Shown one piece after another: positions 1,639-26,286 of a stretch of DNA of 40,991 nt. This stretch comes from Bacteroidota bacterium (GTDB taxonomy: Bacteria; Verrucomicrobiota; Verrucomicrobiia; Methylacidiphilales; UBA1321). The stretch's first letter is position 1. Each line of letters starts with the position of its first letter. The stretch lies in assembly GCA_903970335.1 (NCBI GenBank), contig CAJCII010000184.1:1-40991 (forward strand). Direction: 5' to 3'. The notes below the pieces were generated by a model that saw only the letters and a program-made list of their open reading frames with translations, was not told where the DNA came from and did not search any database. The position numbers and the translations under genes were made by a program.

Positions 1639-1971
1639 GCGGACTCCATGTTGCCATGCGTCCTTCTTTAGAGCCGATCTCCCGGCCTGTCAATCTTCCG
1701 CGCCGCCACGCCGTCGATCATCGACCGCTGCCCAGGTGGTTGCCCTCGATCGAAGTCAGTTGCCCGACTGAGTGGCGGGATCTCGTCGGATCGATTCGGC
1801 GCGTTGGCCGGCTTTTTCCCGTGAAAACGACACCTGTAAAAATCTTAGGCAGAGCTAAGGGGACAAGCCTGTCAAAATTGCTTCCTGATTTTTTATGCGA
1901 ATACCACTTGCCAAAGTGGTCGGCTCTCATATGATTCCCCGCATCTGGTCACACCAAGTAAGGGTCATGTG
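1639..1971. promoter_or_regulatory. Candidate oriT and divergent promoter region upstream of the relaxase
   Basis: The gap between the divergent PP-loop and relaxase genes is more AT-rich than its surroundings. It holds three successive inverted repeats: CTTAG/CTAAG (1844-1859, 6-nt spacer), GACA/TGTC (1862-1873) and the perfect 7-bp ACCACTT-gcca-AAGTGGT (1903-1920). MobF relaxases usually nick next to an inverted repeat just upstream of their own gene, so this is the best oriT candidate in the window. The nic position cannot be assigned by eye. The repeats could also be operators autoregulating the relaxase. Confidence 0.45.
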
Positions 1972-4755
1972 ATGCTTCTCAGCTACGAGGTCACTTCGGC
2001 CTCGCGTGCCAAGGACTATTTCGCCACCAGCGTCTCGCCCGAGGCGATCGCCTCCCGCCAGGACTATTATTCCGAGGGACAGGAATCGCCCGGCAAATAT
2101 GGCGGCAAGCTGGCCGATGTGCTGGGCCTGGCCGGCAAGCCGGTCGATGAAGCGACCTTCCACCGGCTCTGCGACAACCGGCACCCGACCCAGGACAAGC
2201 CGCTCACCCCCCGGACCAACGACCATCGCCGGGTCTGCTACGACTTCACCATCTCCGGGCCGAAGTCGTTCTCCATCATCGAGGCGTTCGCCGAGCCGGA
2301 AGAACGGGGCCGGTTGCGGCGAGCCTTCGACGAAGCGGTCGCGGAGATGGTAGCCGAGGACATGGAACCGGACATGCAGACGCGGGAGCGGGCGAAGGGG
2401 GCCGATCACAACATCACCACCGGCAACATCCTGACGGTCAGCTTCGATCACGCGACCGCCCGTCCGGAGAATGACGACACCCTGCCCGATCCCCACTGGC
2501 ACAAGCACCTGCTCGTCTGGAACGCCACCCGACGGCCCGACGACGGCAAGATCAAGGCCGGCCAGTTTGGCGACATCGTCCGCGACAAGCCCTACTACCG
2601 GGCCGCGTTCTACTCGCGACTGGCGGATAACCTCGAAGACCTGGGCTACACCATCGACCGGCGGGGCGGCACCGAATGGGAGATCGCCGGGGTCCCGCAG
2701 ACGGTCATCGACAAATTCAGCAAGCGGACGATGCAGATCGAGGCCGAGGCCGAAAAGCGCGGCATCACCGATGCCGCCGAGAAGGCCGAGCTGGGGGCCA
2801 AGATCCGGTCGAACAAGCAGAAGAATCAGACGCTGAGCGAACTGCGGACGGCCTGGGATGCCCAGCTCGACCAGGGGGAGCGAGACGCTCTGGCCAAGGT
2901 GTACGCCGGGGAAATCCCGCCGGGCCAGGAAGTGACCGCTTCCGAGGCGGTGGCGTGGGCCATCGCCCACGTCAGCGAAAAGCTCTCGGTGTTCCCCGAG
3001 CGGGAAATCAAGCGGGTCGCCTTGCTCCACGGGCTGGGGTCGGTCACGCCGGACCAGGTCGCGGCCGAGTTGCCGCGACAGGGCGTGATCACCTCGGAGA
3101 TCGACGGCCGGTGGATGGCGACCACCGAAGGGCTGCAACGCGAGGAGGATTACCTCGTCGGCCAGGCGGCGGGCGGTCGCGGCAGCGTGGCGGCCGTCGG
3201 CGTGCCCGAGGGCCTGACCCGCATCATGAAGGACGGCAAGTCGCTCAACGACGGCCAGTGGGACGCGGTCACCGGGCTCCTGACTTCGGAGAACCGGATC
3301 AACCTGGTCGAAGGCCCGGCCGGGGCGGGCAAGTCCTCCTTGCTCGGCAAGTACCAGGAGGGGATGCGGTTGGCCGGGAAAGACATCCATTTCTTCGCGA
3401 CGACGGCGGCAGCCGTCGAGGTGCTGCACAAGGACGGCTTCACGGGCACGAAGACCGTCGCCCACCTGTTGCTGGACGAAAAGCTCCAGGCGTCGATCCG
3501 GGGGAGCCGCGTCGTCATCGACGAGACGTCGCTGCTCGGCCACAAGGACGCGGTCGCCTTGTTCCAGCTCGCCGAGAAGCTCGACCTGAAACTGACCTTC
3601 GTCGGCGACCCGATGCAGCATGGTTCCATCGCCCGTGGTGCCCTGATGCGAATCCTCAAGGACTACGGCGGCATCAAGCCGTTCCAACTCACGGAGATCC
3701 TCCGTCAGGAAAACCCGGTCTACCGCGAGGCGGCTAAGCTGCTGTCCGAGGGCAAGACGCTGGAGGGCTTCAACGCCATCGACGCGATGGGCCGGGTCTT
3801 GGAGATCGCCGAGCCGGAGGATCGTTACCGGCACATCGCCGTCGATTACTGGCAGGCCCTCGACGACAAGAAATCGGTCCTGGTGGTCTCGCCGACGCAC
3901 GCCGAAGCCGGGCAGATCACGACGGCGATCCGCTCGGTCTTGCGGGATGCCGGGAAGCTCGGAACGGAGGACCGCCAGTTCACCCGCCTGGTCGCGGTCG
4001 ATACCAGCGAGGCCGAACGCGGTCTGGCCACCACCTACCGACCGGGCGACGTCATCCAGTTCCACCAGAACGCCAAGGGGGGATTCCAGAAGGGAGATCG
4101 GCTGACTGTCACGGACGCCTCGGCCCTGCCGCTCTCCCAGGCGGCCCATTTCTCCGTCTACCGGACGGAGGCCATCTCGCTGGCCGAACGCGACCGAATC
4201 CGCTTCACCGGCAACGTGAAGACGCTCGACGGCAAGCACACGCTCAAGAACGGCATGGCCCGGACGGTCGCCGGGTTCACGCCCAAGGGGATCAAGCTGG
4301 ACAACGGCTGGGTCGTCCCGGCCGATGCCGGACATTTCCGCCACGGGTTCGTGGAAACCTCGTTCGGGTCGCAGGGCCGGACGGTCCAGCGGGTCATCCT
4401 CGGCATGGCGGCTTCCTCGGCCCCGGCCATGAACATGGAGCAGCTCTACGTGTCGGCGAGCCGGGCCAAGCAGTCGGTCCGGGTCTATACCGATTCCAAG
4501 GAGGAGATCCGCGACGCGGTGAAACGCTCGTCGAAGAAGCTCGCGGCGCTGGACCTCCGCCCCAAGCCACCGGCCGCCCCGCCGAAATCACGCGGGATGC
4601 ACGATCACACGGCCAGGCGTCGTCGCCTCTCCGTGATCGAGTGGATGCGGGCGGCCTGGAACCGGCAACCGTCACACGACTCGCGGCCGGTCATGAAGCA
4701 AACGCACGACGACCGGCTTGCCGGTCGGGAACGGGTCGGTGGCCATGAGAGATAA
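1972..4755 (+). CDS. MobF-family conjugative relaxase/helicase (TrwC/TraI-like)
   Basis: This 927-residue protein would nick oriT and unwind the transferred strand. The N-terminal relaxase domain (about 1-300) carries candidate catalytic tyrosines near the start (Tyr16; Tyr32-Tyr33) and the metal-binding His triad PHWHKH (His175, His177, His179). The second half is an SF1 helicase: Walker A GPAGAGKSS with Lys454, Walker B VVIDE with Asp517-Glu518, and a late motif VI (YVSASRAK). Length matches TrwC of R388 (966), so it lacks the extra C-terminal region of F TraI. I chose ATG 1972 rather than the adjacent GTG 1969 because it sits 7 nt after AGGG (1961-1964) and gives the usual MLLSYEVTSA start. 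A small partner gene follows at once. The high GC content leaves long spurious antisense frames. Confidence 0.93.
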   Translation: MLLSYEVTSASRAKDYFATSVSPEAIASRQDYYSEGQESPGKYGGKLADVLGLAGKPVDEATFHRLCDNRHPTQDKPLTPRTNDHRRVCYDFTISGPKSFSIIEAFAEPEERGRLRRAFDEAVAEMVAEDMEPDMQTRERAKGADHNITTGNILTVSFDHATARPENDDTLPDPHWHKHLLVWNATRRPDDGKIKAGQFGDIVRDKPYYRAAFYSRLADNLEDLGYTIDRRGGTEWEIAGVPQTVIDKFSKRTMQIEAEAEKRGITDAAEKAELGAKIRSNKQKNQTLSELRTAWDAQLDQGERDALAKVYAGEIPPGQEVTASEAVAWAIAHVSEKLSVFPEREIKRVALLHGLGSVTPDQVAAELPRQGVITSEIDGRWMATTEGLQREEDYLVGQAAGGRGSVAAVGVPEGLTRIMKDGKSLNDGQWDAVTGLLTSENRINLVEGPAGAGKSSLLGKYQEGMRLAGKDIHFFATTAAAVEVLHKDGFTGTKTVAHLLLDEKLQASIRGSRVVIDETSLLGHKDAVALFQLAEKLDLKLTFVGDPMQHGSIARGALMRILKDYGGIKPFQLTEILRQENPVYREAAKLLSEGKTLEGFNAIDAMGRVLEIAEPEDRYRHIAVDYWQALDDKKSVLVVSPTHAEAGQITTAIRSVLRDAGKLGTEDRQFTRLVAVDTSEAERGLATTYRPGDVIQFHQNAKGGFQKGDRLTVTDASALPLSQAAHFSVYRTEAISLAERDRIRFTGNVKTLDGKHTLKNGMARTVAGFTPKGIKLDNGWVVPADAGHFRHGFVETSFGSQGRTVQRVILGMAASSAPAMNMEQLYVSASRAKQSVRVYTDSKEEIRDAVKRSSKKLAALDLRPKPPAAPPKSRGMHDHTARRRRLSVIEWMRAAWNRQPSHDSRPVMKQTHDDRLAGRERVGGHER

Positions 4756-6642: not shown

Positions 6643-6861
6643 TTAGCCGTTGTTCTTGGGCTTGGTCAGCACGATCCGGCCGTCGAGCGGGATCGAATGA
6701 AGCTGGACGGTGAAGCCGCCGTCGCGGTTGCTCCAGGCAATGCCGATGCGGTCCCAGTAGCTTTGCTCGTCCTTCCCCTCGCGGACCTGGTAGGCGACCA
6801 GGCTCGGCTTGCGGTTCTTGACTCCGGTATCGAGGGCGGCTTCGGTTTCTGTGTTTGACAT
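6643..6861 (-). CDS. Small conserved plasmid protein (72 residues)
   Basis: The short protein has a disordered N-terminus and a beta-rich body with the motifs KPSLVAYQVREGKD, SYWDRIGIAW and LDGRIVL. I recognise this pattern from small proteins beside relaxase and antirestriction genes on alphaproteobacterial and planctomycete plasmids, but know no assigned function. AGAAGG lies about 8 nt before ATG 6861. It is preceded by the three-hairpin element at 6887-7092, the same arrangement as the helicase gene, so the two may be co-regulated. Confidence 0.75.
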   Translation of the reverse strand: MSNTETEAALDTGVKNRKPSLVAYQVREGKDEQSYWDRIGIAWSNRDGGFTVQLHSIPLDGRIVLTKPKNNG

Positions 6862-6886: not shown

Positions 6887-7092
6887 GGCCCCGGACCATC
6901 CGTGGCCTTACGAGAGCAACCAATCAGACGCCTAGCCGGGCTCTACGCCCACCGACCGCATCGTGCGGTTGGTGCCCGCCGCAACAAGAGAAACGGAAGG
7001 TTTATTCTTTGGAAAAACAAATTCTTATGAAATCCGTTTCTCTTGTTGCGGCGGGCGGCGGCGGCTGTAGGTTCGCGGTAGTTAGGCCCACC
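6887..7092 (-). ncRNA. Three-hairpin structured element, copy A (candidate 5' leader)
   Basis: Three hairpins precede the 72-residue gene. (1) A perfect 24-bp inverted repeat, 6974-6997 with 7033-7056, spans 35 nt; inside it TTTAT (7001-7005) can pair with ATGAA (7027-7031). (2) CACCGACCGCA (6950-6960) faces TGCGGTTGGTG (6964-6974) across a TCG loop. (3) GGCCcCGG-accat-CCGtGGCC spans 6887-6907. Copy B at 12515-12716 has the same order, loop sizes and flanks but different stem sequences, many of them compensatory. Strand is uncertain: position and shared orientation favour a minus-strand leader, yet two changed pairs in copy A are G-T on the plus strand and would be C-A on the minus. Confidence 0.6.
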
Positions 7093-7362
7093 GATGGTCC
7101 GGAGTTGGATCGAACTTGGGAGGGAACCGGCCCTGACAGACCGGAAATGAGCGGCGTGAGTACCTGGGACCGGACGGGTAGGATCGGCTGCCGGGAAAGG
7201 TGGGAATGGAGGAAAAGCGGCGGGATCTCCGGCGGAGCCGGGCGGCCCTCTGGCTCTTCACAATCCGGGGTCAGTTCCGAGCCATCGGGCCGGAAAGGAC
7301 CGAGCGACGGCGATTCCATCGCCGGTAAGGTCGTCGAGCGACCGACGATCAGGACGATGGGA
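7093..7362. other. Non-coding stretch between the helicase and element A
   Basis: No convincing gene, terminator or repeat is seen in these 270 nt. The only open frames are GC-rich, proline/arginine/serine-rich shadows. Confidence 0.5.
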
Positions 7363-10300
7363 TCAGAACAAACTCAGTTGGCGACCGACCTGGCGTCGTC
7401 CACGGTAGATCTGCTGCCGGTAGGCCGGTCCCTGCCGGGCGTCGACCGGCATCTCGGCATCGGTCGGGGTCACGGGCTGGGATGGGGGCTCGGTGGGAGT
7501 CGCGGGTGCGATGGCTTCGATCGAGGCGATTTCCGGTTCTGGAGAAACCGGCTCGGCCGGTGGCGGCGGCTCCGCTTTTGGTCCATTCCGACGACGGATG
7601 CGGGCCGTCACCGGCTCCTCGGCGATGATCCGGCGGGTCGAGGTTCTCGCGGGCGCGGCGTCGATGGTGTGGGCGGCTTTCAGGGACTTGATCCGTTCCG
7701 CCAATTCGACGACCGTTTCCACGCCCGGCTCCGGCGTCGTCCGGGAGAGGCCCAACTTCAGACGGTCGCGTAAATCAGTCAGCTCCCTCAGATAATCGTC
7801 GTGCGGGAAGGCACGGCCGATCCGGGCTTCGTGGTCGCGTAATTGGCCCCGGGCGATCGTCAGTTCCGAGCGGGTGCCCTCGCATTGGCCTTCGTAGCCG
7901 GCGGCCAGGCGGTCCAGGGCATTGAGCACCGCACGCGGCCCGCGATGGTCCCGCGAAAGCTGACCATGACGATTGGCGGCCCCTTCGAGATAGATGTCGG
8001 CGGCATCGCCAGGATAGAGCACGACCCCGAAGGCCAGGCCGCGATAGCGTCCGATTGGGAATCGCTTGGTCTCCCGGACCTTTTCCGGGAGGGTGTCGAG
8101 GCGATCGCTTAAGCTCGCCATCGCGTCGCCGGACCTGCCGGTGATGGTCAGGGGATCGCGGCCGTGGGTTAGGGTGGTTGCCTGATCGGCCGACAGGGCG
8201 GCCAGGCGGCCCTCCAGTCGATCGATCGTGTCGGGTAGCTCCCGAATGGCCCGGCGGGCGAGGAATTGCTCGTCGGCGTGGTTCTTTTTCAGGATCGCCA
8301 GCCGCTGCAATTCGGCGTCGGCCTCGGCCAGCGTCAGTACGGCCGGGTTGCCCGAGGCGATCGCCTTCACCTCGGCGTAGGACAGCTCCTGGCCGCCGAT
8401 ATCCTCGGCGCGTCGGGCGGCGTTGTCGCCGGTCATCACCTGGCCGATGAACCGGGCCTTGGTCTCCAGGGCCTGCCACATGTACGAATCAAAAGATCCG
8501 GTTGTGACGTAACGATAGATCGCCACCTCCTCGTTGCCGTTGCCCTGACGGAGAATCCGGCCTTCCCGCTGCTCGACCTCGGCTGGTTTCCACGGGGCGT
8601 CGAGATGATGCAGGGCCACCAGGCGTTTCTGGACGTTGGTGCCGGTGCCCATCTTGGCCGTGCTGCCGAGCAGCACGCGTACCGAGCCGGCCCGGACCCG
8701 GTCGAACAGGGCCTGCTTCCTGGCATCCGAATCGGCGTCGCCGACGCTGGCGATCTCGCCCCTGGGGATACCTCTGGCGACCAGCTTTGCGATCACTTCG
8801 TCATAGACGCAAAATCCCCATTGGGTCGGGTTCACGCCCATATCGCAGAAAATCATCTGCGTGCCACGCGAAGTGGCGGTATCCCGCCAAATCCGCTCGA
8901 CGTTAGCGGCCAGGGCGTTGATCTTTGAGTCTGAAACATCGGCGGCGGTCGCGGAAAGCATCCGGGCATCGAGGGCGAGCTTGCGGCCATCGGTGGTGAT
9001 CGCCAGGGCATTATCCTCCCTCGGATCGACCTTTTCTTTCCTTAAGCGTTCGTAGCGGGCAATCAATGCTTGCTGGAGGGCGGCTTGTTCCTCGGACATT
9101 GGGCAGGCCACGACGTGCGGCTTGCCGCCTTCCAGGCTGGGGCGGGGTAAATCGAGCATGTCCGGCGTTTGCACGTCGGAAAACGCCCGGAACATCTGCT
9201 GAAGCTCGGGCAGGTTGGTAAATTTCGCGAAGCGGCTCCGGGGCCTGAGGCTCGCCCCGTCTGGCGAGATTTCCATCGTATCGACGACTTCCCCGAACGT
9301 GGCGGCCCAGCCGTCGAAATGCTCGATGCCGCGAGCCTGGAGGCCCTCCGGGTCGAGAAACCGCTGCATCGTGTACATCTCGACCATCGTGTTGGAAATC
9401 GGCGTGCCGGTGGCGAACGTCACGCCGTGGCCGGGGTGTTGCTCGCCCAGATAGCGGGCTTTCATGTAAAGGTCGAAAGCCCGTTCCGAACCTCCGGTCT
9501 GGATACCGGCGACCCGCTCCATCTTGGTCGGGCATTCCAGATTCTTGAAATAATGGGCCTCGTCGATAAAGACGTGATCGACGCCCAGTTCGTCGAACAC
9601 CAGCCCGTCATCCTTTTTGTCCTCGGCGGCCAGTTGCTTTAGCCGCTCCTCGCGGCGGGCCTTCTGTTTCTCGATGGTTTTGATGATGTTACGCGGCGTG
9701 CCGCTCCCGGCATGGTCGCGGAGCAGTTCATCGTATTCCCGGATTTGTTCGCGAAGAAACTGCTGCTGGTAGTCGGCCGACATGCCGATCCGCTCGAAGC
9801 TCGAATGCGTGACGATGATGCCGTCCCATTCGCCGCTGGCGATTTTGGCGGTCAGCAGCTTGCGGCGGTCGCGGGCCAGATCCTCCTTGGCGGCGACCAG
9901 GAGCTTGGCATTGGGGTAAAGCTGCATGAATTCGCGGGCAAATTGCTCCAGCATGTGGTTGGGCACCACGTACATTGGCTTCTTCGCCAGGCCGGTTTCT
10001 TTCAGCTTCATGCCGGTCGCGGTCATCGTGAAGGTCTTACCGGCCCCGACCGCGTGGGCCAGCAGCGTGTTGCCGCTGCTCATCCCCCGCCAGATCGCGT
10101 CCTTCTGGTGCTGACGGAGCTGGATGCCCTGGCTCATGCCGGGGAAATCGAGATGCGAGCCGTCGAACAGCCGGGGCCGAAGGTTGTTGTAGGTATCGTT
10201 ATACAAGCGTACCAACCGTTCGGTCCGCTCCGGCCCCTCAAACACCCACGACCGGAATTTTTCCTTGATGAGTTTCTGCTTCTCGCGGGCGGCAAGCGTC

Positions 10301-12483
10301 GCCTCTTGGTTGACAATACGTTCCTCGCCGTTGACTCCCTGGACGGTGTCGTAGATCACCGGGGTTTTCATGTTGAGGGCCAGCTCGAATAGCCAGGTGC
10401 CGTTGGCCCTGGTGGTGCCGTATTCGGCGGTGGCCGCGACCGACGCCTCGGTGGCGTGCCCGGCTTCGACGCTCCACACGGCGTCTTTCTTCAGGTGGCC
10501 GATCGGGATGGAAGAGGGCGTGACGCCGAACAATTCGGCGGCAAATGCCTGGATGTCGCTGGCCGGTATCCACGGGGCACCGAGATTGGCGTCGATATCG
10601 CCGGGCAGCACGTCTTCGGGCTGCACTGAACGCAACGCCACGGCATTGCGGGCATAGTCCGGTCCCGCTTTCTCGGCGATCGCCAGCTTGGAGCGGACAT
10701 TGCCCGACAGATAATCGTCGGCGGTCTGCCAGGCCGTGGATTCCGGGTCGCGGTAGATCAGATCGCCGAGTTCGGCGATGATCGTGTCTTCCGGCTTGCC
10801 GTAAAGCTGGCTGATATAGGCCAGGTCGATGCCGCCGGTCCTATCGAGGCTCACCAGCAAGCCTTCCTCGGCGGAAGAAACGCGGGTGATGGGGGGGCTT
10901 TTGCCCACCACGTCGCGGAGCAAAATCGGGGCTTTGACTGCTTTGCCGGTCACTTCATCATATTCTTCGAGTGCCATGACCAGCATGGCATCCGGGTCCT
11001 CCCGGAATTTCGCCAGGTTGGGCATGCGGCGGGTCATAGTCCCGTCGGCCGTTTCGCTGAAGGTGGTTTTGTTGATCGGCCCATAATGCATGGCAAACAG
11101 GTCATAGGCATGATTCAAGGCCCGGCGGGCGGTGGTCCGGTTGGCTTCCGGCCAACCGTCGTTCTGCGACTGAAGCACCCGGCGGGCAAGGTCGCGTAGG
11201 CCGACCAGGGCGGCCAGCCGCTTGCCGGTCATGGTGCCATCGGCCTTGAGCAGCGTGCCGCCATACGTGACGGGCTGCGACTGCCCGCCTTCCACCTGGT
11301 GGATAACCCGGTCATCGCCTACGAAGAAACTGCCTTCGGTGATGTGACGCTCGGGCGGCGGAGGTGTGAAGGCCGGGACGGGTTCGGATAATGCGGCGGG
11401 CAACACGGCATGCTCTGGCAGTCGCTTAATGGCGGCGTCGAGCTGCGTGGCGAGATCGCCCTGGCCTTTGACGCTGTAACCGGCCTCACCGCCATAGAGC
11501 CGGTCCTGGCGGCTCCAGGTGCCCAGCACCTGCTCGGGATGATCCAGGAAATAGCGATTGACCGTGACGTCGGCCCCTTCGATCGGAATCGTCCCGGTGT
11601 CAAGCCAATCAGGGTCAACGTGTTTGGGCGTTTGCTCGTTGGCGCGTTTGCGGAGGAACAGGATATCGGTCACGACCGAGGTGCCTTCGCGTTTGAAGGC
11701 ATCCGACGGCAGGCGGATGGCTCCTAAGAAATCCGCCCGGTCGGCCATGTATTCACGGGTGGAGGCATTCTGCTTATCCATCGTGAAATGGCTGGTGACC
11801 AAAGCCAGGACACCGCCCGGTTTCAGGGCATCGAGCGACTTGGCGATGAAGAAATCGTGGAGTGGTAGCTTCCTTCCCCGATAATCGAGCCGGACGTCGG
11901 CAAAGGGCGGGTTGCCGATCACCGCGTCGAGGCGGCCATCGGGCAATTTGGTGTCGCGGAAGCTTTCAATCCGGATATCGTGGCCGGGATGCAGGGCGCG
12001 GGCGATCCGGCCCGAGACCGAATCCAGCTCGACCCCGATGAATTTCATCCCCTCGGTGGCGGCTCCTAAGAAATTGCCGGTGCCGCAACCGGGTTCCAAC
12101 ACCGTGGCGTTGCCGGGGACGCCCAGGCGGGCCAATGCCTGGTGCATGGCGGCGATCACCGTGGGCGAGGTATAGAAAGCGTTGAACACCGTCCGTTTGG
12201 CGGAATCGTATTCCTCGGGCGTGAGCAGCGATTGCAGCTCATCGCCCAGGCCCTGCCACCCGGCGTCCTTGTAACGCCCGCTCACCGGATCGGGAAACAG
12301 CGACAGAGCCACGGCCCCGAACCCGCCGAAGCGGGCGAGCGTTTGCCGCTCGGCTTCAGTGGCGGGACGCTGTTCCCGCTCGACCTGTTGAAGCGTGCGG
12401 ATGGCGGCGATGATGTCGCGGGCCTTGGTCTTCTCGCCACTGGCGATGAATGGCGGTGGCCTGGTCGTGTCGGTGGCGTCCAT
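7363..12483 (-). CDS. Giant N6-methylase plus SNF2/DEAH helicase fusion (plasmid type)
   Basis: About 1706 residues from ATG 12483, chosen because AGGAGG stands 8 nt upstream; the frame continues open to 13251, but that stretch is low-complexity and contains the duplicated hairpin element. The N-terminal part is a gamma-class adenine methylase: motif I EPGCGTGNFLG (about 127-138) and NPPF (Asn191-Phe194). The C-terminal half is a superfamily 2 SNF2-like helicase: Walker A HAVGAGKT (Lys816), DEAH box (Asp974-His977) and a motif VI-like ILRQGN near 1305. Relatives are large plasmid, conjugative-element and phage proteins, with a similar domain combination in phage P1 DarB and Bacteroides BmhA. 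An antirestriction or incoming-DNA protection role is plausible but inferred. A coiled, charged tail ends the protein. Confidence 0.9.
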   Translation of the reverse strand: MDATDTTRPPPFIASGEKTKARDIIAAIRTLQQVEREQRPATEAERQTLARFGGFGAVALSLFPDPVSGRYKDAGWQGLGDELQSLLTPEEYDSAKRTVFNAFYTSPTVIAAMHQALARLGVPGNATVLEPGCGTGNFLGAATEGMKFIGVELDSVSGRIARALHPGHDIRIESFRDTKLPDGRLDAVIGNPPFADVRLDYRGRKLPLHDFFIAKSLDALKPGGVLALVTSHFTMDKQNASTREYMADRADFLGAIRLPSDAFKREGTSVVTDILFLRKRANEQTPKHVDPDWLDTGTIPIEGADVTVNRYFLDHPEQVLGTWSRQDRLYGGEAGYSVKGQGDLATQLDAAIKRLPEHAVLPAALSEPVPAFTPPPPERHITEGSFFVGDDRVIHQVEGGQSQPVTYGGTLLKADGTMTGKRLAALVGLRDLARRVLQSQNDGWPEANRTTARRALNHAYDLFAMHYGPINKTTFSETADGTMTRRMPNLAKFREDPDAMLVMALEEYDEVTGKAVKAPILLRDVVGKSPPITRVSSAEEGLLVSLDRTGGIDLAYISQLYGKPEDTIIAELGDLIYRDPESTAWQTADDYLSGNVRSKLAIAEKAGPDYARNAVALRSVQPEDVLPGDIDANLGAPWIPASDIQAFAAELFGVTPSSIPIGHLKKDAVWSVEAGHATEASVAATAEYGTTRANGTWLFELALNMKTPVIYDTVQGVNGEERIVNQEATLAAREKQKLIKEKFRSWVFEGPERTERLVRLYNDTYNNLRPRLFDGSHLDFPGMSQGIQLRQHQKDAIWRGMSSGNTLLAHAVGAGKTFTMTATGMKLKETGLAKKPMYVVPNHMLEQFAREFMQLYPNAKLLVAAKEDLARDRRKLLTAKIASGEWDGIIVTHSSFERIGMSADYQQQFLREQIREYDELLRDHAGSGTPRNIIKTIEKQKARREERLKQLAAEDKKDDGLVFDELGVDHVFIDEAHYFKNLECPTKMERVAGIQTGGSERAFDLYMKARYLGEQHPGHGVTFATGTPISNTMVEMYTMQRFLDPEGLQARGIEHFDGWAATFGEVVDTMEISPDGASLRPRSRFAKFTNLPELQQMFRAFSDVQTPDMLDLPRPSLEGGKPHVVACPMSEEQAALQQALIARYERLRKEKVDPREDNALAITTDGRKLALDARMLSATAADVSDSKINALAANVERIWRDTATSRGTQMIFCDMGVNPTQWGFCVYDEVIAKLVARGIPRGEIASVGDADSDARKQALFDRVRAGSVRVLLGSTAKMGTGTNVQKRLVALHHLDAPWKPAEVEQREGRILRQGNGNEEVAIYRYVTTGSFDSYMWQALETKARFIGQVMTGDNAARRAEDIGGQELSYAEVKAIASGNPAVLTLAEADAELQRLAILKKNHADEQFLARRAIRELPDTIDRLEGRLAALSADQATTLTHGRDPLTITGRSGDAMASLSDRLDTLPEKVRETKRFPIGRYRGLAFGVVLYPGDAADIYLEGAANRHGQLSRDHRGPRAVLNALDRLAAGYEGQCEGTRSELTIARGQLRDHEARIGRAFPHDDYLRELTDLRDRLKLGLSRTTPEPGVETVVELAERIKSLKAAHTIDAAPARTSTRRIIAEEPVTARIRRRNGPKAEPPPPAEPVSPEPEIASIEAIAPATPTEPPSQPVTPTDAEMPVDARQGPAYRQQIYRGRRQVGRQLSLF

Positions 12484-12514
12484 GCGGTGATCTCCTCCTG
12501 CCGGCTCCGTATCA

Positions 12515-12716
12515 GGCCCCGACGATCGGGGCCTTTCGGAGCGATCAGACAGACGCGAGACGGGCTCCCGCCCACCGGCGGCATCGTGCCGTCCGGTGCT
12601 CGACGCCACGGCAGAAGCCGAAGGTTCACCCTTTGGGAATTCATCCTTTGTGAAAGCGGCTTGTGCCGTTGCGGCGGGCGGTTCCGGCTGTAGATTCGCC
12701 AGAGAAAGGCCCACGG
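12515..12716 (-). ncRNA. Three-hairpin structured element, copy B (candidate 5' leader)
   Basis: This is the second copy, 32 nt upstream of the helicase ATG at 12483. (1) Long stem: 12599-12620 with 12657-12678, 18 of 22 positions paired by hand count, spanning 36 nt, with TTCAC (12625-12629) facing GTGAA (12650-12654) inside. (2) CACCGG-CGGCA (12573-12583) with TGCCG-t-CCGGTG (12587-12598), loop TCG, one bulged T. (3) GGCCCCG-acgat-CGGGGCC (12515-12533). Primary sequence conserved with copy A includes GTTGCGGCGGGCGG (12668-12681 and 7045-7058), then GGCTGTAG and TTCGC, then AGGCCCAC. Stem positions differ between copies mostly in ways that keep pairing. Confidence 0.6.
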
Positions 12717-19708: not shown

Positions 19709-21487
19709 ATGAACAAGATCCTGCGTTTTGTCCTGGCGGTCACCATGCTGCTGGCGGCCTATGTCACGGCCGCCTCGGCTTACCTGTTCCCCTTGCTCGG
19801 GGTGCCATTGGCGGTCGTCGCGATGGTTGGCCTGGCTCGCAAGGGGCGGCAACTCTACGCCCACGGCACGGCCCGCTGGGGCCAAGCGGCCGACATCCCC
19901 CACCTGACCGGGGGCGGCAACGGCCTCATCGTCGGCCATATCGAGGGCAAGCCCGCGAAGATCGACGGCGTCAAGGCGCTGTTCGACCGGAGCCTACCGG
20001 CGCGGCTGGCGGTCCGACGCTTCCTGGAGTCCTGCCAGCCCAGGACCCGGCGGAATCTCGTCAGACTCAATACTTCCGTTCATACGTGCGTGTTCGCGCC
20101 GACCGGAGTCGGCAAGGGCGTCTCGTGCGTGATTCCGCATTTACTCACGAACACTGATTCATGCGTAGTCGTCGATTTCAAGGGAGAACTGGCCAAGATC
20201 ACCGCCGACGCCCGTCGCAGGATGGGCCACAAAGTCGTGCTACTCGATCCCTACAGGCGGGTCACCGAGGACCCGGACACGTTCAATCCGTTCGATTTCA
20301 TCGACCCCGAGTCGGAACTGGCGATCGACGATTGCCGCGACATCGCCGAGGCGCTCGTGGTCCGCACCGGCCAGGAGAAGGACCCATTCTGGAACGACGC
20401 GGCCGAGACCTGGCTCACCGCCATGTCGGCCCTCCTGGTGAACCTCAAGCCGGAGATCGCCGCCAACCTGGCCGAGCTGAAGACGCTGGTGAGCGACACC
20501 AAGCTCATGCGTCAGGCGATCGTCAAGATGATCGAATCGGACGCCTGGGACGGGGTCCTGTCCCGCCTCGGCCATACGCTCACCCATTCCCAGGACAAGG
20601 AACTCAACTCGACGCTCACCTCGACCAACCGGCACCTGCGCTTCGTCGATTCGCCCGCGATCGCCGCTTCCACGGCCGCGAGCAGCTTCGACCCGGCCGG
20701 CCTCCTGACCGGCAAGATGACCATCTATCTCATCCTGCCCCCGGATCGGATGAGGGCACAGGCCGGCCTCCTCCGCCTCTGGGTCGGCTCGATGTTCCGG
20801 GCAGTGATCCGGGGCGGTCTCCAGGAGGACCGTAGGGTGAACTTCGTGCTGGACGAGGCGGCCAGCCTCGGCCGCATGGAGGCCATCGACGACGCGATCG
20901 ACAAATATCGCGGATACGGAATCCGTTTGTTTCTCTATTATCAATCACTGGGACAACTCAAGAAATGCTACCCCGACGATCAGGGCCAGACCCTCCTGAG
21001 CAACACCACGCAGGTCTTCTTCGGCGTCAACGACCAGCAGACCGCCGAGTACGTCAGCAACCGACTGGGCGAGCAAACCATCGTCGTGACGAGCGGGGGC
21101 ACTTCCAGCGGCGGCTCGAATTCGAGCGACTCCAAGTCGGGTTCGAGCAGTTCCGGCACGTCGTGGAACCGCAGCGAGAACTGGCAGCAGCACGCACGCA
21201 AGCTCCTCAAGCCCGAGGAGGTCACCGCTACCTCGAAGCAGGTCGCGATCACTTTCAGCCCCGACGCCCCCCCCCTGTGGACTCGGCTCATTCGTTACTA
21301 CGAATGGGATTTCAAGGAATCACGCGGCATCGGACCCGTGAAGGCGGTCGTCGACACGACCTGCCTGTTCCTGTTGGCAGTGATGGCGACCGCCTTCGTC
21401 ACGGCGGCGCTGATCTTCGGCTTCTCGGAGGAACCCAATGTCCAAGCGAACCAGGGATTTGATCGAGCAGGTGAAGTCGGGCGATAG
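19709..21487 (+). CDS. Type IV coupling protein (VirD4/TraG/TraD family)
   Basis: This 592-residue ATPase would bring the relaxase-DNA complex to the transfer channel. It has two N-terminal membrane segments (LRFVLAVTMLLAAYVTAASA; LLGVPLAVVAMVGLA), Walker A APTGVGKG with Lys136, Walker B FVLDEAASLG with Asp382-Glu383, and the conserved LFLYYQSLGQL segment that follows. A Ser/Gly-rich linker around residues 460-485 and an extra hydrophobic helix near the C-terminus (CLFLLAVMATAFVTAALIF) are unusual for the family. GAGGAG-type sequence precedes ATG 19709. No VirB-type channel genes are present in the window, so transfer would need a channel encoded elsewhere. Confidence 0.92.
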   Translation: MNKILRFVLAVTMLLAAYVTAASAYLFPLLGVPLAVVAMVGLARKGRQLYAHGTARWGQAADIPHLTGGGNGLIVGHIEGKPAKIDGVKALFDRSLPARLAVRRFLESCQPRTRRNLVRLNTSVHTCVFAPTGVGKGVSCVIPHLLTNTDSCVVVDFKGELAKITADARRRMGHKVVLLDPYRRVTEDPDTFNPFDFIDPESELAIDDCRDIAEALVVRTGQEKDPFWNDAAETWLTAMSALLVNLKPEIAANLAELKTLVSDTKLMRQAIVKMIESDAWDGVLSRLGHTLTHSQDKELNSTLTSTNRHLRFVDSPAIAASTAASSFDPAGLLTGKMTIYLILPPDRMRAQAGLLRLWVGSMFRAVIRGGLQEDRRVNFVLDEAASLGRMEAIDDAIDKYRGYGIRLFLYYQSLGQLKKCYPDDQGQTLLSNTTQVFFGVNDQQTAEYVSNRLGEQTIVVTSGGTSSGGSNSSDSKSGSSSSGTSWNRSENWQQHARKLLKPEEVTATSKQVAITFSPDAPPLWTRLIRYYEWDFKESRGIGPVKAVVDTTCLFLLAVMATAFVTAALIFGFSEEPNVQANQGFDRAGEVGR

Positions 21488-23886: not shown

Positions 23887-24083
23887 AAACAGTTGGAGCC
23901 TTAACGCTCTGGACGGATCAACCCGCCAGCGGCGTAGGGCAGGGGCTGAGGGTCGCCTTCGAGCGACCAACGGGAGCGACCCTTAACCCCGCGATACCCT
24001 TCTTTCCTTTTTCCCCCGTACCCCCACCGGGGGCGGAGGGGGGAAACAATAAACGCGGCGAAGCCGCATCCGCTCAAAGCAAA

Positions 24084-24132
24084 CCGGCCATTTTCGCCCC
24101 CCACAGTATTTCTGGGGGCGAAAATGAGCCGG
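24084..24132. repeat. Long inverted repeat (13 bp plus 5 bp stem)
   Basis: CATTTTCGCCCCC pairs with GGGGGCGAAAATG across a loop of about 11 nt; the stem is extended by CCGGC/GCCGG with a single bulged A. It is strong but not followed by a T run on either strand. Confidence 0.65.
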
Positions 24133-24168
24133 AACAAACAGCGGCGGGAGCGGAGCGACCCACCACTA

Positions 24169-24228
24169 GGCGACGGATCGGCTATCGGCATGCCAGCATG
24201 GATGCTGGCGGGCCGATAGCCCGTCGCC
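24169..24228. repeat. Nested 60-nt cruciform
   Basis: GGCGACGG (24169-24176) pairs with CCGTCGCC (24221-24228), GGCTATCGGC (24180-24189) with GCCGATAGCC (24212-24221), and the apex GCCAGCAT-gg-ATGCTGGC (24192-24209). The outer two stems share base 24221. The apex GCCAGCAT is also the core of partition repeat I. Confidence 0.65.
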
Positions 24229-24460
24229 GTTTCTTGCACCAGCGGGCCGAAGGGGCGGCTCCGCCGGTCCCGAAGGGACGGGCGGAGCTGACCCCCGGAG
24301 GCACGCGGTGCCGCGTAGCGGTAGGTGCCAGAAGGATCATTCAGGATAGGCCAAAAACCGCCCTGGATGGCCCTGGGAACGTCGAAACGTGGTTCAGACG
24401 GAGGAATCTACCGGCGAGAGCGAAAATGTCTGGAAGGGGCATTTACGGGGCAGGACGGGC

Positions 24461-25954: not shown

Positions 25955-26093
25955 TGTTGTTCATTCGTAAAAACACCACCACCGCCTTGTTGATGTTGTT
26001 TAGGTTAAACATAGTCTATAAGTCTAGGGAAAACCAACGATTCTGTAAAGCACTTAATATCAGATACTTGCATCGATTCCCAGAGGAAAATCC

Positions 26094-26286
26094 GTAACCC
26101 AAAGTGCGTGAAAGCGTAACCGAAAGTGCGTGCTGCCGTAACCGAAAGTGCCCGATTCCGTAACCCAAAGTGCGTGAAAGCGTAACCGAAAGTGCGTAGG
26201 GCGTAACCCAAAGTGCGTCCTCTCCTTGAGAGGTCGTCAATTCGAGCCTCAGCGTCGAGTGGGACCGCCTGTAACCGAAAGTGCGT
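26094..26286. repeat. Iterons of the plasmid origin of replication (oriV)
   Basis: Seven direct repeats of GTAACCSAAAGTGCGTG occur at 26094, 26116, 26138, 26160, 26182, 26203 and 26271; the third and the last copies are less complete at the 3' end. Spacing of the first six is 22, 22, 22, 22 and 21 bp, two helical turns, so bound Rep monomers would line up on one face. A degenerate eighth copy (GTAACGCAAAATGC) sits at 26370-26383. The stretch 25975-26085 next to it is AT-rich and could be the melting region. No convincing DnaA box was spotted. Confidence 0.93.

Follow-up and report, generated by a model that had tools for sequence, protein, structure and literature searches.

Probable single-stranded DNA promoters folded on the template strand of leading-region genes in conjugative plasmids of Planctomycetota

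Two related, branched DNA elements in the putative leading region of a MOBF conjugative plasmid probably each serve as a single-stranded DNA (ssDNA) promoter, similar in working to Frpo and ssi but situated in Planctomycetota. Single-strand promoters are known from few sequence families, mostly on enterobacterial plasmids. The DNA analyzed here, hereafter the window, is a stretch of 40,991 nt (contig CAJCII010000184.1); coordinates given without a locus name are window positions. Computation shows how and on which strand the elements fold, that their stems covary, where their promoter-like boxes lie and which way these face, and that the genes around them are of leading type. A first-pass annotation of the window had reported copies A (6887-7092) and B (12515-12716), and blastn indeed joined the two at 73% identity over ~205 nt (E 5e-22). 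The copies are separated by 5.6 kb.

On either strand, both copies fold more strongly than 200 of 200 dinucleotide shuffles. The corresponding z-scores, again from 200 dinucleotide shuffles, were -8.7 (plus) and -9.4 (minus) for copy A and -5.0 (plus) and -4.0 (minus) for copy B. Read 5' to 3' along the template strand, the plan common to the element family consists of a GGCC-type hairpin, outer stems P1, P2, and P3, one or two small hairpins, a long hairpin (P4), and the returning arms of P3, P2, and P1, with folds of ~120-185 nt. In copy A, the folded element occupies 6904-7088 on the plus strand, which is the template strand of the gene at 6643-6861, and is homologous to pSINAC03 positions 2649-2832 and to the other copies; its P4 hairpin (6974-7056) bears an inner stem at the tip. 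The element of copy B folds at 12530-12711, likewise on plus (the template strand of the gene at 7363-12483), with P4 at 12598-12679. GGCC-bounded hairpins are evident in the plus-strand sequence at 6887-6907 and 12515-12533, and most copies have a similar hairpin in this place. The three-hairpin architecture first described for these copies stands as to its parts, namely the GGCC hairpin, an 11-bp stem with loop TCG, a small GGGC/GCCC stem, and a long stem with an inner stem. The GGCC hairpin and the larger fold are, however, alternatives, given that the 3' GGCC is shared with outer stem P1, as in copy A.

Fifteen additional copies were found on plasmids and in chromosomal insertions of Isosphaerales, for a total of 17 with a median pairwise identity of 52%. 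The copy on pSINAC03 of Singulisphaera acidiphila was retrieved by blastn (80% identity to A, 75% to B), and on PALBO2 of Paludisphaera borealis a divergent copy occupies the corresponding position, ahead of an orthologue (73% identical at the protein level) of the gene behind the pSINAC03 copy. Divergent copies were located by synteny. The product of this gene, a 90-amino-acid leading-region protein, was searched against 45 genomes from the order to which S. acidiphila belongs, yielding matches in 12 genomes and an element in 12 upstream regions: L060 (the pSINAC03 copy, Sing), L061 (the PALBO2 copy, Pal), L062 to L066, L070, L072, L073, L077, and L078. The remaining, mostly weaker homologues from the same search had no element upstream. 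Three copies precede other genes: L092, which shares a contig with L064 at a distance of ~6.2 kb; L103, before an orthologue of the copy A gene; and one in L118, before a methyltransferase-helicase homologue. A hairpin-pattern scan over 45 genomes returned mostly chance matches, but two were real new copies. Sequence patterns and a first covariance model (R1) gave no further matches in 384 genomes of the bin's class or in the viral contigs scanned; a Stieleria match inside a flavohemoprotein-like gene (L016) and a match at L010 were rejected as chance. In every copy measured, 38-49 nt separate P1 from a start codon. Copies A and B do lie just before start codons, as originally described, but the strand required correction: ATG 6861 and ATG 12483 are both on minus.

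Alignment of eight copies provided a statistical check on covariation, which the first-pass annotation had called for. Among 39 pairs, 87.8% of pairings were standard, and 15 pairs had changes on both sides. These compensatory changes amounted to 31 cells against 12.1 in shuffled alignments, a count reached by 0 of 500 shuffles; the covariation score of 0.309 (0.149 shuffled) was also reached by 0 of 500. When partners were slid by one column, pairing fell to 50%, although part of the excess over slid versions is expected, as the structure was predicted from the same alignment. The 17 copies are related and are therefore not independent tests, and the folds of L070 and L077 are only weakly better than shuffles. 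The earlier proposals of a selected structure, in which stem changes keep pairing, and of a shared cis-regulatory role upstream of genes both gain support from the 15 further copies, the strong covariation, and the constant start-codon distance. In the Rfam search proposed at the same time, no Rfam 15 family reached the gathering score in the window, and the matches below it were only weak chance hairpins.

The strand that folds best is the template strand. With DNA energies, it was more stable than its complement in 14 of 14 copies, also after shuffle correction, and with RNA energies in 13 of 14. Eight control regions, taken upstream of weaker homologues of the 90-amino-acid protein that lack the element, gave no consistent sign. 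Folded on plus, alignment A4 contains 8 G-T and 1 A-C cells, whereas its complement, folded on its own terms, contains 3 G-T and 6 A-C cells, which marks plus as the better-folding strand. An mRNA leader should show G-U pairs on minus; the wobble pairs are instead G-T on plus, which argues against a leader. The first-pass annotation had remarked that two altered pairs of copy A are G-T only on plus. The direction was right, but the observation holds for variant pairs generally rather than for two, and the attached caveat of a DNA-level structure was the right lead. Its favored RNA leader, by contrast, is contradicted by the poorer folding of the mRNA strand (minus) in all copies tested with DNA energies. 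On the strand test and the absence of an Rfam match, a riboswitch or mRNA leader was rejected. In Frpo1 and Frpo2 of the F plasmid, the transferred strand (T-strand), which is the template, likewise folds better than its complement.

Promoter-like boxes of the form TTGNNN, 16-17 nt, yA occupy one fixed structural place in the 3' arm of 14 of the 17 copies. The -35-like box lies on the plus strand in the 3' arm at the base of P4. It reads TTGCGG in copies A (7046-7051) and B (12669-12674), Sing, and L103; TTGACT in Pal; TTGACC in L062, L072, L073, L078, and L092; TTGACG in L118; TTGATC in L065; TTGCAA in L066; and TTGCCT in L077. TTGAC thus recurs in seven copies, including the very divergent ones from Paludisphaera (TTGACT) and L072 (TTGACC). 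The -10-like box follows 16-17 nt later at P3/P2 and reads TAGGTT in copy A (7068-7073, partly paired) and TAGATT in copy B (12691-12696), both 16 nt past the -35, with TACTGG, CAGCTT, and similar sequences elsewhere. Many -10-like boxes begin with C, but the second-position A is kept in every one assigned, an alignment point that was partly chosen by eye. Wherever boxes were assigned (15 copies), four to six of the six -35 positions pair with the 5' side (six in copy A, four in copy B), and the -10 is located 12-18 nt ahead of the duplex end. In double-stranded DNA, the boxes would direct transcription away from the gene; once the single strand is folded, its 5' half is the template, and the boxes would be directed at the gene. 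Transcription would be predicted to start a few bases before the duplex end. In a scan with a generic sigma70 matrix, most single -35/-10 matches did not outscore shuffled sequence (p 0.05 to 0.99), and clear boxes are missing from L064 and L070. The mobF promoter of the same plasmids, by comparison, has the form TTGCCA- or TTGATT-16-TATGAT. The argument is carried not by the single matches, with their weak -10 boxes, but by the structural position that they share.

The gene behind copy A (6643-6861, minus, ATG at 6861) encodes a 72-amino-acid protein assigned to no family; its orthologue in L119 is 74% identical and also has an element, L103, in front. Next in the same block is an N6/N4 DNA methylase (PF01555; 5827-6585, minus) with homologues at 77% and 67% identity. 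Behind copy B lies a 1,706-amino-acid DNA methyltransferase-SNF2 helicase (7363-12483, minus), whose L118 homologue is 72% identical and has an element at the equivalent place. Copy B is 5' of ATG 12483 but inside a longer open frame listed to 13251; a ribosome-binding site (GGAGGAG) precedes this ATG, downstream of which fall all of the N6-methylase and helicase matches. The window also encodes a MOBF (TrwC/TraI-like) relaxase (1969-4755, plus; PF08751, E 7e-68; NF041492 MobF, E 5e-58), a coupling protein (19709-21487), ParA, and a Rep-like gene. The relaxase marks the transfer region beside the putative leading region. By relaxase, the closest named relatives are PALBO2 (56% identity) and pSINAC03 (46%). 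In all three plasmids, the relaxase gene and the gene following it face a block whose genes run the opposite way; the element sits inside that block, before its genes. Separately, an RpoB fragment of the bin containing the window is 49% identical to that of S. acidiphila, with Stieleria at 71%, yet the plasmid has its closest relatives among Isosphaeraceae plasmids, which points to either a mis-binned contig or transfer to a distant host. Copies of the element also occur within long, multi-megabase contigs of two other assemblies (L116, L117, and L121; G648 and G676), one with a MobF homologue (L116), which suggests integrated conjugative elements.

The genes behind the copies lie among homologues of F leading-region genes (YfjB/ParB, YgeB/DUF932, ArdC, and methylases), and every one of these leading-type genes faces the relaxase block. 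In leading regions, the genes for anti-defence proteins, methylases, and SSBs have a single orientation relative to the T-strand, and Frpo-type promoters let leading-region genes be expressed early (PMC11541004). In F, Frpo1 and Frpo2 lie ~5 kb apart, and the block behind Frpo2 comprises ssb, yfjA, yfjB, psiB, and psiA (PMC9849209). The pSINAC03 operon encodes a ParB-like protein with homology to F protein YfjB over 580 amino acids (E 3e-41); the yfjB gene (L031, 19539-21497) comes after ssb. Homologues of the DUF932 gene that follows the other F copy, Frpo1, are found in the same blocks and orientation as ArdC (PF08401) and methylase genes. No such folds are present in front of the genes beyond mobF, mobF itself, or rep. 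Gene orientation and the folding strand suggest plus as the transferred strand. If oriT were upstream of mobF, the relaxase gene would be the first to enter on plus, which would be unusual and would count against this assignment. A hairpin before mobF was rejected as oriT, as it holds the mobF promoter (TTGCCA-16-TATGAT in the window and in Paludisphaera). A conserved block, AAGGGNATCAGACTG, is found upstream of mobF. It belongs to a region (1780-1968) conserved in several plasmids, with an inverted repeat (GTCAGT..ACTGA), AAGGGNATCAGACTG itself, and the promoter TTGCCA-16-TATGAT with an overlapping palindrome, and this region is a candidate for oriT plus an autoregulated promoter.

We envisage the following mechanism, in which recognition by RNA polymerase, the start site, and the identity of the transferred strand are the parts we infer. 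The plus strand would enter the recipient as ssDNA and fold into the branched stem, the 3' half of which would supply the non-template strand with the -35 (TTGNNN) and -10 (yANNNT), and the 5' half the template. RNA polymerase would load on the folded duplex, start within P1/P2, and run off into the 5' single strand. The minus-strand genes, encoding methylases, the methyltransferase-helicase, and small proteins, could thereby be transcribed before the second strand is made, and the RNA may, as at Frpo, double as a primer for the synthesis of that strand.

Other roles for the folds were weighed against this mechanism. Each copy could be a priming or single-strand initiation site (ssi/sso/primosome type) for the second strand, with gene expression secondary or absent. 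The same folding strand and plasmid setting would be expected of such a site, and Frpo itself also primes DNA synthesis, judging from the title of Masai and Arai 1997 as cited in PMC11541004. A pure priming site, however, has no need of gene linkage or gene-facing boxes. The copies keep a constant distance of 38-49 nt to start codons, although the genes concerned differ, and a plasmid can carry more than one of them, each heading its own block of genes; we regard this explanation as unlikely. A cis-regulatory mRNA leader transcribed from minus (riboswitch, attenuator, or protein-binding leader) is very improbable. It would account for the position before start codons, and minus also folds strongly, but each G-T tolerated on plus becomes an A-C mismatch on the mRNA strand, which is the less stable strand in 14 of 14 copies with DNA energies. 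Nor does a leader agree with the lack of an Rfam family at gathering score or explain the conserved TTG-16-yA on the opposite strand.

Plus-strand folding would also fit a plus-sense antisense or other small RNA running across the element. The sole conserved promoter-like pair is nonetheless at the 3' side, such that the RNA would start beyond the element, no terminator-like end was noticed on reading the sequence, and the constant spacing to a start codon on the opposite strand is left unexplained, giving this idea minimal probability. We grant just as little to a mobile or recombination element (IS end, MITE, retron msr-msd, or integron attC-like site) or to oriT itself, even if the copies are palindromic, repeated, and plasmid-borne. 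No target duplications and no reverse transcriptase gene were noticed beside the copies, which track particular genes and their start codons, and oriT is hard to reconcile with replicons that carry at least two copies ahead of different genes.

As single-strand promoters, the present elements have their nearest counterparts in Frpo1 and Frpo2 of F. In both systems, it is the template strand of leading-region genes that folds as ssDNA, and it does so better than its complement. Both have two copies ~5 kb apart on a MOBF plasmid, located before early blocks with a ParB-like gene (YfjB), and F has a DUF932 gene near Frpo1. The elements described here differ in size and branching, have high G+C and a weaker -10, and come from a different phylum. 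Similarity to Frpo1 and Frpo2 was not significant by blastn-short (matches of 9-13 nt, best E 0.009, most of the best oppositely oriented), indicating that the family does not belong to the Frpo sequence family. Frpo elements are single-strand promoters of the ssi type, according to Masai and Arai 1997 as cited (PMC9849209, PMC11541004). For ColIb-P9, the titles of Bates 1999 and Nasim 2004 as cited in PMC7736820 refer to single-strand promoters with secondary structure-dependent, single-strand transcription of the leading region; host and genes differ from those here. Samuel et al. 2024 (PMC11541004) likewise predicted candidates, named Frpo' and Frpo*, by fold and boxes before leading-region genes, but these were found through similarity to known Frpo or consensus boxes and in elements of other groups; the main text of that paper does not mention Planctomycetota. 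Similarity searches with Frpo would miss the present family. With somewhat less confidence than in the promoter assignment, we propose that conjugative elements of Planctomycetota carry their own, independently evolved ssDNA promoter system, in which a family of no fewer than 17 branched folds of the template strand, perhaps joined by another kind of fold before ardC and DUF932 genes, drives anti-restriction and establishment genes from the entering ssDNA. This would extend transcription from the transferred strand beyond enterobacterial Frpo. The lack of Frpo similarity, the compensatory evolution on the template strand, the distant phylum, and the shared MOBF setting together suggest that conjugation in general needs genes to be transcribed early, from the incoming ssDNA. 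Asking which strand carries the wobble pairs is a test that requires only sequence and may find ssDNA promoters, along with establishment and anti-defence genes, in any phylum.

Other structured DNA was noticed in the same plasmids. A second, different element precedes ardC and DUF932 genes in the same blocks (L115 6020-6200, L114 6560-6841, L017 40463-40700, L120 14010-14289, L119 6201-6420, and L117 5705-5920). It comprises a GGTTGAATGC/GCATTCAACC hairpin, a GTCAAGG/CCTTGAC stem, CTGCACAAGC and GCGGAAG motifs, and mostly TTGAC at the 3' side, and is possibly a second family of single-strand promoters. Near the Rep-like gene, a conserved noncoding region at 23987-24300 (L009 14162-14399, L017 16483-16574) contains covarying hairpins (GCGGCGAAGCCGC; CCGGC...TTTTCGCCCCCC/GGGGGCGAAAA...GCCGG) that form the strongest fold of the entire window; oriV, oriT, or an ssDNA initiation site are possible assignments. 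Beside the Rep-like gene, at 26091-26286, four to five 22-bp repeats (CGTAACCGAAAGTGCGTG) are likely iterons.
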